Shown here one piece after another: positions 3,136 through 10,739 of a stretch of DNA of 20,811 bases; positions within the stretch are counted from its first letter, which is position 1, and every line of letters begins with the position of its first letter. Source of the DNA: a virus. The position numbers were made by a program, and so were the translations under genes. The stretch is from IMG/VR virus record IMGVR_UViG_3300025889_001160, positions 1 through 20,811 of that record. One strand, given 5' to 3'. The notes under the pieces are model-generated. The model did no database searches. It was given only the letters and a program-made list of their open reading frames with translations, and was not told the origin of the DNA.

Positions 3136-4694
3136 TGGCGATCTTCGGTATCGGTCGCACCGGCGCGTTGCAGAAGCAACTGGCTGAAGCGCAGCAGAAG
3201 AACAGTTATCTAAAGCGTGCTTACGCCGCCGCTCAGAACAACCGCCTCACGTCTGACTGGATCAGTCAAGCCACATCGGCTGACAGCGAGATCCGAGGCA
3301 GCATCAGGATGCTTCGCAATCGCGCCCGTCAACTGGTGCGTGATTCCGACTTCGCCAAGTCTGCCCTGCGTGCTGTCCGCAACAACGTGGTCGGCACCGG
3401 CATCAGGATGCAGGCTCAGGTGCGGATGCAGCGTGGTGGCCGCCTTGCTGATGAGATCAATCGCCGCATCGAAGAGGAATTTGATCGCTGGACTTCGGCA
3501 AAGCGTTGTCACACCGGCGGCAAACTGAGCTGGTATGACATCCAACGTCTCAGCATCACGTCTGTCCTTGAATCCGGTGAAGTCTTCATTCGCCTTGTCA
3601 AGCAACCCTTTGGTGGCAGCAAAGTACCGCTCGGCCTTGAACTCATCGAGTCGGATCTTCTTGATGATGATTACAACGGCATCGAGAAGAACGGCAATGA
3701 AGTACGAATGGGCGTGGAGATTGACAAGTGGGGACGCCCGGTTGCCTATCACTTCTTTGATTACCACCCTGGCGATTACCAATTTGCTTATGCCGTCAAA
3801 GCAATGAAGAAGCGGGTGCGCATTCCCGCTGAAGACATCATTCACCTTTATTTGATTGAACGCCCCGGCCAGACGCGTGGTGTTAGCGCGTTTGCTACGG
3901 CGATCATGCGCCTGCGCAATTTGTCTGGATACGAAGAAGCCGAGATTGTCGCCGCTCGTGCCAGCAGCAGCATGATGGCGTTCGTGAAGACACCAGATCA
4001 GGAGCTGTTTGAAGATGGCACGTTTGATCAGGAGTCTGTCCTCGACTTCTCGCCCGGCAGCATCCGTCGATTGGCTCCCGGCGAAGAAATGCAGTTTTTC
4101 ACGCCCAATCGCCCTGATGATGCATTCACTCCTTTTGTGCAGCAAATGCTGCGAGCTGTGGCTGCTGGGATTGGCTGTTCTTACACGCAAGTCAGCTCAG
4201 ATTTTTCTCAAAGCAACTACAGCTCTTCACGACTGGAACTGCTTGAAACAAGAACGCATTACAAAACACTCCAGCAATACTTGATCGAATCGCTGTGCGA
4301 AGAGGTCTACGAGAAGTGGATTGAAATGGCCGTGTTGGCTGGCGTTCTGGATCTGCCGAATTACGACAGTAATCCTGAGCGTTACGAAGAAGCCAAGTGG
4401 ATTGCACCTGCTGCTCAGTTCGTTGATCCGCAGAAAGAAGCTGCTGCTTACAAGGAACTGATCCGCTCAGGCATCATGACGCTCTCGCAGGTGATCGCCC
4501 TGCACGGCGGTGACTTTGAGGATCAGATGCGTCAACGCCAGCATGAACTCGCTGTTGCTGATGAGTACGGCATTGTCCTTGATACTGACCCGTCGCAGGT
4601 TTCTAACAGCGGCGTTTCTCAACCTGTTCCTGTTGCTCCAACTGAACATCCGATGGAACATGAGGAAGAACCTGAACTTGAGGACATCGACTGA
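3135..4694 (+). CDS. Portal protein, lambda gpB family
   Basis: The portal is the dodecameric ring at the capsid vertex through which DNA enters and leaves and on which the neck and tail are built. The N-terminal region (SEIRGSIRMLRNRARQLVRD from 51, then SDFAKSALRAVRNNVVGTGI to 90) is the hallmark of lambda-type portals. The middle contains IIHLYLIERPGQTRGVSAFA, and from about residue 345 VAAGIGCSYTQVSSDFSQSN and YSSSRLELLETR, also family signatures. At 519 residues it is close to lambda gpB (533). The C-terminal 30 residues are acidic and proline-rich. GAGG at 3123-3126 lies 8 bases before the ATG, and the start overlaps the previous stop by 1 base. Confidence 0.96.
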   Translation: MAIFGIGRTGALQKQLAEAQQKNSYLKRAYAAAQNNRLTSDWISQATSADSEIRGSIRMLRNRARQLVRDSDFAKSALRAVRNNVVGTGIRMQAQVRMQRGGRLADEINRRIEEEFDRWTSAKRCHTGGKLSWYDIQRLSITSVLESGEVFIRLVKQPFGGSKVPLGLELIESDLLDDDYNGIEKNGNEVRMGVEIDKWGRPVAYHFFDYHPGDYQFAYAVKAMKKRVRIPAEDIIHLYLIERPGQTRGVSAFATAIMRLRNLSGYEEAEIVAARASSSMMAFVKTPDQELFEDGTFDQESVLDFSPGSIRRLAPGEEMQFFTPNRPDDAFTPFVQQMLRAVAAGIGCSYTQVSSDFSQSNYSSSRLELLETRTHYKTLQQYLIESLCEEVYEKWIEMAVLAGVLDLPNYDSNPERYEEAKWIAPAAQFVDPQKEAAAYKELIRSGIMTLSQVIALHGGDFEDQMRQRQHELAVADEYGIVLDTDPSQVSNSGVSQPVPVAPTEHPMEHEEEPELEDID

Positions 4695-7357
4695 TGGCAA
4701 AGGTTGGTGACAAAACAATCGACCTGATGCCAACAGAAGGCATGAAGGCCGAAGCGCGTCGCTATCGCGCATGGAAGAAAGATGGTCGCCCCGGTGGCAC
4801 TGATGTTGCTGCTACCCGTGCTGGTCAGATCCTGTCAGGTGACGAACTCAGTCCTGATACTGTCATCACGATGACCGCATGGTTTGCACGCCATGAGGTT
4901 GACAAGCAGGGCAAAGGCTTTCGTCCTGATGGTGAAGACTATCCTTCGCCGGGTCGCGTAGCATGGGCGGCATGGGGCGGTGATTCAGGTCAAACCTGGA
5001 GCAACATGAAATCCAAAGCCATCAAAAAAGCACAGGAGCGTGCCATGGAAATCAACGAAGAGATCGTCGATGGACGCCCTTATCCCAATGAGCATGCTGC
5101 TCGCCTGACTGATCCTGATCAGTACGACAGCATCCGCCGCGTCAATGATGAATTTGGCGCTGGCATTGATGCAATTTATGGGATCAAGGATGGCACCTCT
5201 GAGTTGCAGGCCATTCGTTTTGATGCTGATCGCTTCACGCCCGCCGAGGCTCGCGAATGGCTGAGTGATCACGACTTTGATCCGATGATGTTTGAAGAAG
5301 CCACCGGTGAGCGCAGTGAAGAGAGTGCTGCACCTGATGCTGTCAAGGTTGGTGATTTTGTAGAGTGGGATTCAAGTGGTGGCACCGCACGCGGGAAAGT
5401 TGAACACGTGATGCGTGAAGGTGTACTTGGTGTTCCTGATTCTTCGTTTAGCATTAACGCATCTGAAGAAGATCCCGCTGCATTGATTCGCGTGTACCGC
5501 AAAGACAGCGAAGGTAGTTACAAAGAGACCGAGACTTTGGTCGGTCATAAGTTCTCTGAACTGCGCAAGATTGCTGCGCTGCGCTTCTTTGAAGGCGAGA
5601 CACTGAAGCGTTCACTCGCAACTGAGTTCCGCTCTGAAAGCGAAGATAGGACGCTTGAGTTTCCTTTTGCCAGTGAAGCGCCGGTTGAGCGTTACTACGG
5701 CATGGAAGTGTTGAGCATGGATGCCAAGTCCATGGATCTCACTCGTCTCAACGATGGCGCGCCTCTGCTGTACCAACACGATGCAGACAAGATCGTCGGC
5801 GTTGTGCAGAAGGCTTACATCAAAAACAAGCGTGCCTATGCACGCGTAAAACTCGCGAACAACGAACTGGGTCGCGAGATGCAAGAGTTGATCAAGGATG
5901 GAATCATCCGCAATGTCAGCTTCGGCTACAAGATCAACTCGATGGAAGCCGATGAGTCCACATCACCTGTGACTTATCGCGCTACCAGTTTCCAACCGTT
6001 TGAAATAAGCCTGGTCACCGTGCCGGCTGATAATTCGGTTGGAATCGGACGTTCTTTCTCCCATAATGAGAACGTCGATACGGCCTCAGCCGTTCACAGT
6101 CAACCCAACGGAGTTACAACCGTGGATCAAAACCTCAATGTTGAGGCTATCCGCGCTGAGGCCGCTCAGGCCAAGGCTAAGGAAATGGCCGACATGATTG
6201 CTCTTGGTCAACGCACCAAGAACATTGAAATGGCTCAGGAGTTCATCGCTAACTCCCGCAGCCTTGATGAGCTTCGCTCTGCCCTTCTGGAAAAGATGGG
6301 TGTGGAAGAGAAGCCCCTGAACCCCAAGGATGCCGAGATCGGCATGTCGGACAAAGAGAAGCGTGACTTCTCCTTCATCCGCGCCATCAACGCTCTGGCT
6401 CACCCCAACAGCCAAGAAGCTCAGCGTGCTGCTGCTTTCGAAATGGAAGTCAGCCGTGCTGCTCAGCAGAAGTCTGGCAAGGAAGCCCGTGGCATCCTGA
6501 TCCCCGCTGATGTGCTGGGTTATGGCCGCCGTGACCTGACCGTGGGTTCTGCCTCCGGTGGTGGTGATCTGGTTGCCACCGATCTGATGAGCGACAGCTT
6601 CATCGATCTGCTCCGCAAGGCTCTTGTGCTGCAGACCGCTGGCGCGACTGTGATGACCGGCCTGCAAGGCATGGTTGCTCTGCCCCGTCAGTCTGGTGGT
6701 GCCACTGTGTACCACGTCGCTGAGTCTGGCTCGATCACCGAGTCCCAGCTCACCGTCGACCAGGTGACGATGCAGCCCCGCACGATTGGTGCGCTGACTG
6801 ATTACTCGCGTCGTCTGCTGCTTCAGTCCAGCATCGACATCGAGAACCTGGTGCGTCGCGATCTGGCTCAACAGATTGCCATCGAAGTTGAGAACCAGGC
6901 CATCAACGGCACCGGTGCTTCTTCGTATCCGCTGGGCTTCCTGAACGTGACCGGCATCAACACCGAGTCCGGTTACACCACGTTCCTGGATTACGTGAAT
7001 GCTGAGGCCGCTCTCAGCACCGACAACGCCCTGCTGGGCAGCCTCGGCTATCTGATGAACTCCGCTCTGCGCGGCACTCTGAAGACCACCGAGAAGTCGG
7101 CCACCGGCACCAACGCCAACTTCATCTACGAAGCCGACAACACCATCAACGGTTACCCGGCTTACGTGTCCAACTCCATGCCGAACAACACTGCGGTGTT
7201 CGCTAACTTCAGCGACATCCTGATCGGCTTCTGGAGCGGTCTGGACATCATGGTTGACCCTTACACCGGTTCCGCTTCCGGCACCGTGCGTGTGGTGGCC
7301 ATGCAGGACTATGACGTGGCCGTGCGTCATCCTGAGTCCATCTGCAAGCTGTCCTGA
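4694..7357 (+). CDS. Multidomain prohead protease-major capsid fusion
   Basis: One uninterrupted 887-residue frame joins functions that are usually separate. Residues about 17-118 are a phage-associated domain (GRPGGTDVAATRAG, FARHEVDKQGKGF, GRVAWAAWGGDSG). Residues about 145-202 hold a second (AIRFDADRFTPAEAREWL). Residues 216-293 look like a Tudor/SH3-like DUF2945-type domain (KVGDFVEWDSSGG, ASEEDPAALIRVY, VGHKFSEL). Residues 294-455 are an HK97-type (S78/U35) prohead protease with probable catalytic H362 (LLYQHD) and S409 (RNVSFGY), and E437 (FEISLVTVPAD) as a candidate third residue. Residues 478-600 are helical and charged, like the HK97 delta/scaffold domain. Residues about 600-887 are the HK97-fold capsid. 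GAGGA at 4680-4684 precedes the ATG by 9 bases. The capsid part seems richer in G/C-ending codons than the N-terminal half. Confidence 0.9.
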   Translation: MAKVGDKTIDLMPTEGMKAEARRYRAWKKDGRPGGTDVAATRAGQILSGDELSPDTVITMTAWFARHEVDKQGKGFRPDGEDYPSPGRVAWAAWGGDSGQTWSNMKSKAIKKAQERAMEINEEIVDGRPYPNEHAARLTDPDQYDSIRRVNDEFGAGIDAIYGIKDGTSELQAIRFDADRFTPAEAREWLSDHDFDPMMFEEATGERSEESAAPDAVKVGDFVEWDSSGGTARGKVEHVMREGVLGVPDSSFSINASEEDPAALIRVYRKDSEGSYKETETLVGHKFSELRKIAALRFFEGETLKRSLATEFRSESEDRTLEFPFASEAPVERYYGMEVLSMDAKSMDLTRLNDGAPLLYQHDADKIVGVVQKAYIKNKRAYARVKLANNELGREMQELIKDGIIRNVSFGYKINSMEADESTSPVTYRATSFQPFEISLVTVPADNSVGIGRSFSHNENVDTASAVHSQPNGVTTVDQNLNVEAIRAEAAQAKAKEMADMIALGQRTKNIEMAQEFIANSRSLDELRSALLEKMGVEEKPLNPKDAEIGMSDKEKRDFSFIRAINALAHPNSQEAQRAAAFEMEVSRAAQQKSGKEARGILIPADVLGYGRRDLTVGSASGGGDLVATDLMSDSFIDLLRKALVLQTAGATVMTGLQGMVALPRQSGGATVYHVAESGSITESQLTVDQVTMQPRTIGALTDYSRRLLLQSSIDIENLVRRDLAQQIAIEVENQAINGTGASSYPLGFLNVTGINTESGYTTFLDYVNAEAALSTDNALLGSLGYLMNSALRGTLKTTEKSATGTNANFIYEADNTINGYPAYVSNSMPNNTAVFANFSDILIGFWSGLDIMVDPYTGSASGTVRVVAMQDYDVAVRHPESICKLS
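6110..6124 (+). promoter_or_regulatory. Internal ribosome binding site and in-frame GTG start for free capsid protein
   Basis: GGAG at 6110-6113 is followed by 8 bases and then GTG at 6122-6124, which is codon 477 of the protease-capsid fusion and in its frame. It falls exactly at the junction between the protease end and the helical scaffold domain, where separate capsid genes normally begin. The spacing is ideal for initiation. Use of the site is inferred. Confidence 0.5.
6122..7357 (+). CDS. Major capsid protein, HK97 fold (nested product of the fusion frame)
   Basis: This is the predicted 411-residue product if translation restarts at the internal GTG, and the length is normal for an HK97-type capsid precursor. 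The first 120 residues or so are helical and Ala/Glu/Lys-rich, the expected delta-domain scaffold removed by the protease after assembly. The mature part has the family pattern: a segment with LVATDLMSDSFIDLLRKALV, a glycine/hydrophobic strand region ending in VALPRQSGGATVYHVAESGS, then LTDYSRRLLLQSSIDIENLV, the P-domain helix and loop ending in AINGTGASSYPLGFLN, and a final DYDVAVRHPESIC. The capsid identity is firm. Whether free capsid comes from this start, from cleavage of the 887-residue fusion, or from both is not settled by sequence. Confidence 0.55.
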   Translation: MDQNLNVEAIRAEAAQAKAKEMADMIALGQRTKNIEMAQEFIANSRSLDELRSALLEKMGVEEKPLNPKDAEIGMSDKEKRDFSFIRAINALAHPNSQEAQRAAAFEMEVSRAAQQKSGKEARGILIPADVLGYGRRDLTVGSASGGGDLVATDLMSDSFIDLLRKALVLQTAGATVMTGLQGMVALPRQSGGATVYHVAESGSITESQLTVDQVTMQPRTIGALTDYSRRLLLQSSIDIENLVRRDLAQQIAIEVENQAINGTGASSYPLGFLNVTGINTESGYTTFLDYVNAEAALSTDNALLGSLGYLMNSALRGTLKTTEKSATGTNANFIYEADNTINGYPAYVSNSMPNNTAVFANFSDILIGFWSGLDIMVDPYTGSASGTVRVVAMQDYDVAVRHPESICKLS

Positions 7358-10412: not shown

Positions 10413-10739
10413 ATGGCCTTCGTCCTCAAGAAGACTGCTTCCTACAAGTGGGAAGTCAAAGTTGAGATTCCTGTTGATGGGAATCGCTTCGAGTCTCAAA
10501 CGTTCGAGGCAGTCTTCAAAAAGATCAGTCGCTCGGCCTTCAATGCTCTTGTCGAGAAGGGTGATGATGCCCTGCTTGATGGGATCCTTGAAGGCTGGGA
10601 TGGCATCAATGATGAGTCCGGCAAGCCAGTTCCTTTTACCGAGAAAAACAAGAAGGAGCTGTGTGACGATCCCTACGTCATGAAGGCTTTGATTCAGGCG
10701 TATGCCGATAGCGTCACTGGGGCGCCGGCAAAAAACTAA
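10413..10739 (+). CDS. Tail assembly chaperone G (unshifted product)
   Basis: The 108-residue protein lies between the tail tube and tape measure genes, the place of lambda G. It starts MAFVLKKTASYKWEVKVEIP and continues with FESQTFEAVFKKISRSAFN, a beta-strand then helical pattern seen in G-type chaperones. The C-terminal part is acidic (EGWDGINDESGKPVPFTEKN) and ends with a helix before PAKN. In lambda, many copies of G coat the tape measure protein during tube assembly and are absent from the finished virion. The stop TAA at 10737-10739 follows directly on a slippery heptamer, which sends a share of ribosomes into the GT frame. Confidence 0.88.
   Translation: MAFVLKKTASYKWEVKVEIPVDGNRFESQTFEAVFKKISRSAFNALVEKGDDALLDGILEGWDGINDESGKPVPFTEKNKKELCDDPYVMKALIQAYADSVTGAPAKN

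Follow-up and report, generated by a model that had tools for sequence, protein, structure and literature searches.

In lambda C/Nu3 and Mu I/Z, an in-frame nested start preceded by a Shine-Dalgarno (SD) sequence within a protease-bearing gene gives rise to a shorter product that shares the C-terminus of the longer one. In HK97, an S78-type protease (gp4) and the capsid protein (gp5) are encoded by two genes, and a delta domain ahead of the capsid fold is removed on maturation. Here we describe a 20,811-base stretch of a virus record with a lambda-like head module (the whole stretch is called the window hereafter), in which protease and capsid form a single open reading frame (ORF) of 887 codons with a candidate internal start, GTG at position 6122. 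This is very probably a two-product gene, which would yield a protease-bearing long chain as its minor product and a nested capsid precursor as its major one. In the protease/scaffold gene of Pseudomonas PaMx73, a Val codon with an SD was likewise proposed as a nested start (PMC4378225). The window gene resembles these systems in carrying an in-frame nested start inside a protease-bearing gene, whereas the nested product of lambda C/Nu3, Mu and PaMx73 is a scaffold, with the capsid encoded separately, and the nested ORF of the window gene is the capsid precursor itself. A first-pass annotation of the window had pointed out both the lambda-like logic and this difference, and both are supported; sequence comparison shows the in-frame internal start and its ribosome-binding site to be under selection.

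Protease, linker, helices and HK97-type capsid also lie in one ORF in PAJU2 ORF003, c2 l5, Murka, the Rhodobacter RcC cluster and Paracoccus prophages, and c2 and PAJU2, neither of them close to the window gene in sequence, share an SD-ATG at the same place. PAJU2 has been described as a fused capsid undergoing autocatalytic cleavage (as cited in PMC8306868) and Murka as a single propeptide (PMC10892653); the descriptions found of these five as single propeptides or fusions, for PAJU2 the account as cited there, do not mention an internal start. Dinoroseobacter phage R4C belongs to the same capsid family as the window and has a fused gene of 629 amino acids as well, with its best SD-start in the linker (ATG189), and its structure paper mentions neither a protease domain nor two products (PMC10276861). 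Our literature search, confined to an open-access library, turned up no description of a nested start for the capsid in protease-capsid fusions. Nested in-frame products of protease genes are already known for scaffolds, as are protease-capsid fusions; what appears to be new is a nested start that would supply the capsid precursor in fusions that have until now been presented as polyproteins or single proteins (PAJU2, R4C, c2/Q54).

Candidate nested start at the protease-capsid junction

The long ORF (positions 4694-7357, plus strand; 887 residues, 96.9 kDa) is uninterrupted and contains both an S78 prohead protease domain (residues 350-451, positions 5741-6046, plus strand; Pfam PF04586 Peptidase_S78, E = 1.9e-13) and an HK97-type capsid domain (residues 623-886; Pfam PF05065), and a PHROG 617 match spans residues 301-886. 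The first-pass annotation had placed in this frame a GGAG at 6110-6113, an 8-nt spacer (6114-6121) and a GTG at 6122-6124 (plus strand), codon 477, from which a nested ORF of 411 residues (6122-7357, plus strand; 44.1 kDa) would be read. All of these values are exact, and codon 477 falls inside the disordered linker of the predicted structure, in agreement with the proposed site between the end of the protease and the capsid helices. The bare motif was dropped as evidence because its frequency in the window is at chance level: GGAG followed after 5-10 nt by RTG is not enriched there (27 found vs 33 expected).

Comparison of relatives raises the nested start far above chance. Our close-relative set comprises 80 viral contigs that encode the fusion, with 58-100% identity over the junction. 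The GTG is present in 80/80 and the GGAG in 79/80, while residues 456-476 vary strongly; the site is thus kept in related genomes, as a functional start would require. Relatives that retain the fusion without the start were looked for too, and the start proved to be kept clade-wide, with an SD-preceded ATG as its equivalent in nearly all diverse relatives. In four relatives (L068, L076, L115 and L130) the GGAG is present but shifted in reading phase (tcG GAG where others have GGA G), and it is therefore the DNA that is conserved, not the protein. In 41 de-replicated relatives, Val477 is encoded by GTG without exception (41/41), the sole invariant codon among 31 conserved Val columns, and conserved four-fold codons are fixed at 9/15 positions within codons 463-493 vs 12/243 elsewhere (Fisher p = 9e-8). 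Selection on the start codon and the SD is well supported by these patterns.

Several observations weigh against a nested start at this site. The GGAG is missing in L062, L107 and L108, though the GTG and an upstream hairpin are retained; by itself, GGAG makes a modest SD, and ATG is a stronger start than GTG. The junction is not the best SD site of its own ORF in the window, and 22% of other sequence windows score equally well, which places it at an average level by this measure. S-CBS1, S-CBS3 and S-LBS1 carry a linker ATG without any SD, and accuracy selection on the capsid fold could partly account for the stronger codon bias in the capsid half described below. Moreover, the sequences of the clade are related, so the conservation counts are not independent.

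Hairpin ahead of the start

In the cyanophage-like clade, the start is preceded by an RNA hairpin with a 5-bp stem and a 4-nt loop, which reads ACGGC-CTCA-GCCGT in the window (6080-6093, plus strand; its 3' end is 28 nt ahead of the nested start codon) and GCGGC-CCCA-GCCGC, GCTGC-TTCG-GCAGC or TCGGC-CTCA-GCCGA elsewhere in the clade. Across 44 distinct sequences, all stem cells are paired (220/220) with both sides changed in 30, and the covariation of 0.346 compares with 0.116 for shuffled and at most 0.136 for slid alignments. The stem codons shift to suit the pairing (Thr..Val, Ala..Ala, Ser..Asp), and the wobble-wobble pair swaps G-C for T-A synonymously; selection on the hairpin is evident from these comparisons. 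The distance between hairpin and start is 19-34 nt (commonly 25 or 28 nt; 10 nt in L161) over linker lengths of 19 to 50 codons, with a correlation of 0, and the position of the hairpin follows the start rather than the protease end. More divergent lineages carry a different hairpin, 19-30 nt from the start. The strict hairpin was found in 8/29 viral clusters vs 1.3% in the background (p = 3e-9); prophage clusters lack it altogether, and their starts rely on an SD. Several hairpin-bearing lineages are entirely without an SD. An Rfam search of the linker gave no match above noise. As hypotheses for the role of the hairpin, we consider that it keeps the start region open, serves as a ribosome standby site or protects the mRNA end.

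Two further structures were tried and dropped: a stem sequestering the GGAG and GTG, seen in a fold of 6070-6140, whose pairing is not conserved in L071 or L079, and a second hairpin, CTGAG-GCCG-CTCAG, right after the start, which is broken in L015-type relatives.

The position of the hairpin also bears on which codon would be used. ATG at 6194 (codon 501, with TAAGGA upstream) equals GTG 6122 in SD-like energy (-6.0 vs -6.1) and is the best-scoring site in some relatives, so the nested precursor might begin there instead. We regard this as highly improbable, since both the DNA-level conservation and the hairpin are centred on 6122 and not on 6194, and the AAGGA ahead of ATG 6194 merely represents the codons of a conserved Lys-Glu. 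A start at this ATG would furthermore cut into the first delta helix (483-507), and the Met at codon 501 is missing in many more distant relatives.

Codon usage across the junction

In the window, the most likely switch in codon usage lies at codon 484, 7 codons past the GTG, and GCA, TTT, TCA, AGT, ACA and GTA are never used downstream of it. Among 78 clade members, the median switch point is 0 codons from the GTG, with 76% within 15 codons. Prophages with a short protease part offer too little training sequence for a change point, and the effective codon number (ENC) was compared instead. With sequences clustered at 75% identity, ENC is lower for the nested part in 82 of 91 clusters (median 37.6 vs 46.7, p = 1.6e-14), and the stronger bias of this part is also seen in 18/20 clusters in which the G+C content at third codon positions (GC3) drops there. 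By its codon bias, the C-terminal part of the ORF evolves like a sequence with higher expression than the N-terminal part, the effect that translational selection has on segments produced in greater quantity. These data give good support to a higher expression of the nested part, and the stronger bias, together with the conservation of the start, lends support to the two products that the first-pass annotation had proposed.

Phage head genes are mosaic, and the step in codon usage lies at an old gene boundary; it might accordingly be the scar of a recombination that brought in a capsid module from a differently biased genome. The recurrence of the step in 82 of the 91 clusters, in the same sense of stronger bias even where GC3 drops, makes such a scar very unlikely, and the pattern fits translational selection, which argues against it. 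On the opposite strand, an antisense ORF of 414 amino acids (6086-7330, minus strand) runs across the capsid half; it is most likely a by-product of the strong codon bias there and no gene.

Promoter-like sequence in the linker

The linker of the window clade also carries a promoter-like sequence, TTGGAA or TTGGCA followed after 17 nt by CATAAT, 12 nt ahead of the hairpin (in the window TTGGAA-17-CATAAT, 6039-6067, plus strand). A score of at least 9/12 was reached in 35/63 representatives vs 0.4% of random positions. Within the -10-like CATAAT, Asn458 is always AAT (35/35, vs 25% across the remaining Asn columns) and His457 always CAT (31/31, vs 43% elsewhere), and there are no other such columns. 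An internal promoter in the window clade is plausible on these grounds. The linker elements may then act in transcription: the promoter would give a capsid-only mRNA with the hairpin at its 5' end, and the nested start would be used mainly on this transcript. The enrichment and the fixed codons speak for such a transcript, to which we give somewhat less than an even chance. The promoter-like sequence is absent from other hairpin-bearing lineages (S-CBS, S-LBS1, AASAA and AAPAA types), its -35 lies within coding sequence and is variable, and matches to a consensus are no proof. An internal promoter would in any case complement the nested start rather than exclude it.

Diverse relatives and other fusion families

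A diverse set of 255 loci was assembled from cultured phages and, by scanning with profiles, from viral contigs and 84,980 genomes of bacteria and archaea; a capsid-only scan of the bacterial genomes gave no matches, and the family profile then yielded 467 relatives, 80 of which were retained. The relatives' loci examined at the junction are all continuous fusions in a single ORF, as in the window, and the suspicion of split genes at some loci was rejected, as these are continuous fusions overlooked by a strict search pattern. In 57 fusion clusters at 60% identity, prophages included, an SD-preceded ATG or GTG lies within the linker in 91%, compared with 32% for the remaining sequence windows of these ORFs (p = 3.5e-11), examples being CRP-811 (TAAGGAG-6-ATG), CRP-823 (AAGGAG-7-ATG) and VP882 (GAGGTG-5-ATG). 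In the CRP-823 record (L086:1480-4408), the fusion appears as a pair of overlapping ORFs that are each annotated as major capsid protein, whereas a single ORF is present in the near relative CRP-821; the two-ORF annotation is a frameshift or sequencing error.

PAJU2 ORF003 carries AGGAGGG-6-ATG at codon 197, the best-scoring non-initial start of the ORF. In its relative, Moraxella phage Mcat3 (L258:995-2964), protease and capsid are two overlapping genes, and the start of the separate capsid gene aligns with the linker ATG of PAJU2, which makes Mcat3 a naturally split counterpart of the fusion. GGAG-9-ATG is found in lactococcal c2 (codon 131), bIL67 (131) and the 56%-identical LG75P3 (142), and Q54 and Nocturne116 have SD-ATG candidates at codons 144 and 145, respectively; the linker start is the best-scoring non-initial one in LG75P3 and at or near the top in c2, bIL67 and Q54. 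The ClpP-type fusions S1, RcKemmy, F10 and mEp213 contain candidate starts, yet other sites score equal or higher, and they make a weaker case. The recurrence of linker starts in these other fusions supports a nested start as a property of the whole class of protease-capsid fusions, not of this phage alone.

If the polyprotein were the sole product, all capsid subunits would be made at full length and cut by their own protease, and the internal start would be a relic from before the fusion. Processing does occur, since the N-terminus of the mature capsid is set at codon 206 in the c2 record. A relic, however, is expected to decay, yet the GTG, the GGAG and the synonymous codons are kept amid amino-acid drift, the step in codon bias lies at the start in most clusters, and an SD plus start is found at the junction in nearly all of them. 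Full-length subunits would also require hundreds of protease copies inside each prohead, and we consider a polyprotein-only gene unlikely.

Predicted structure and gene layout

An AlphaFold2 model built from a 40-sequence alignment (mean pLDDT 78) places the protease fold up to residue ~453, a disordered linker at 455-481, a first helix at 483-507, further delta helices and then the HK97 fold. The delta/scaffold-like helices, which are predicted between protease and capsid fold at residues ~483-594 (6140-6475, plus strand), are expected to be removed on maturation. The capsid fold matches HK97 prohead structures, and the mature R4C capsid (PDB 8GTA) aligns, from its first residue, to window residue 623; the mature domain would accordingly extend from about residue 623 (6560-7354, plus strand; Pfam Phage_capsid; ~265 residues, ~28 kDa). 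In R4C, the deposited mature chain begins at residue 362 of the 629-residue gene, without protease and delta region, and CGGAGG-5-ATG at codon 189 in the linker is the best start of its ORF. By analogy, the R4C capsid implies that the virion protein of the window phage would be shorter than the nested product, with the delta region removed. Expected products are 96.9 kDa (long), 44.1 kDa (nested) and ~28 kDa (mature).

The ~300 residues ahead of the protease (4694-5740) comprise a PHROG 2859 domain of unknown function (residues 10-115) and an Hva1_TUDOR domain (residues 220-277, positions 5351-5524, plus strand; Pfam PF11160, E = 2.3e-6), present in the long form only; both would be confined to the minor long product. 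Further downstream, a slippery heptamer, A AAA AAC, stands immediately 5' of the stop of a tail-chaperone-like ORF (10413-10739; heptamer and stop at 10728-10739), and the -1 frame after it continues without a stop to 11077, an arrangement like that of programmed frameshifting of the lambda G/GT type.

A probable two-product gene

We infer from the comparisons above the two products, their ratio, their co-assembly and their processing. Translation of the long ORF would begin at 4694, where its ATG overlaps the portal stop TGA (4692-4694), and would probably be coupled and weak, giving little of the 887-residue chain, in which a capsid subunit carries the prohead protease at its N-terminal end. 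Independent initiation at GTG 6122 would account for the bulk of the output, a capsid precursor of 411 residues with a delta-like region and an HK97-fold domain. The capsid C-terminus is common to both products, and the long form can therefore co-assemble; built into the shell lattice, it would bring the protease inside the prohead, where the protease may then cut off the delta regions and itself to leave a shell protein of ~265 residues. HK97 keeps its protease separate, whereas the window protease is proposed to be covalently joined to a minority of the capsid chains. In the window clade, the linker would represent a packed control region, with the -10-like CATAAT, the hairpin 28 nt upstream of the start, the GGAG and the GTG.

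Whether this extends to fused protease-capsid genes in general (this family, PAJU2, c2/Q54 and probably the ClpP type) is in our view an even bet: the nested start would supply the bulk of the capsid and the long chain a minor, obligate subunit that delivers the protease, the cyanophage-like start would be marked by a position-fixed hairpin with or without an SD, and the linker of the window clade would be a complete promoter-leader-ribosome-binding-site-start unit within coding sequence. The shell of a tailed phage consists of hundreds of capsid subunits and has to take in a few proteases, and protease-capsid fusions look paradoxical if the polyprotein is the sole product, a paradox that a nested start would dissolve. 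The hairpin would add to the rare conserved RNA elements that guide internal initiation, in many cases without any SD. A nested start predicts a minor, protease-bearing capsid subunit, and it would mean re-annotating the numerous capsid genes of phages and prophages that are currently filed as single proteins.
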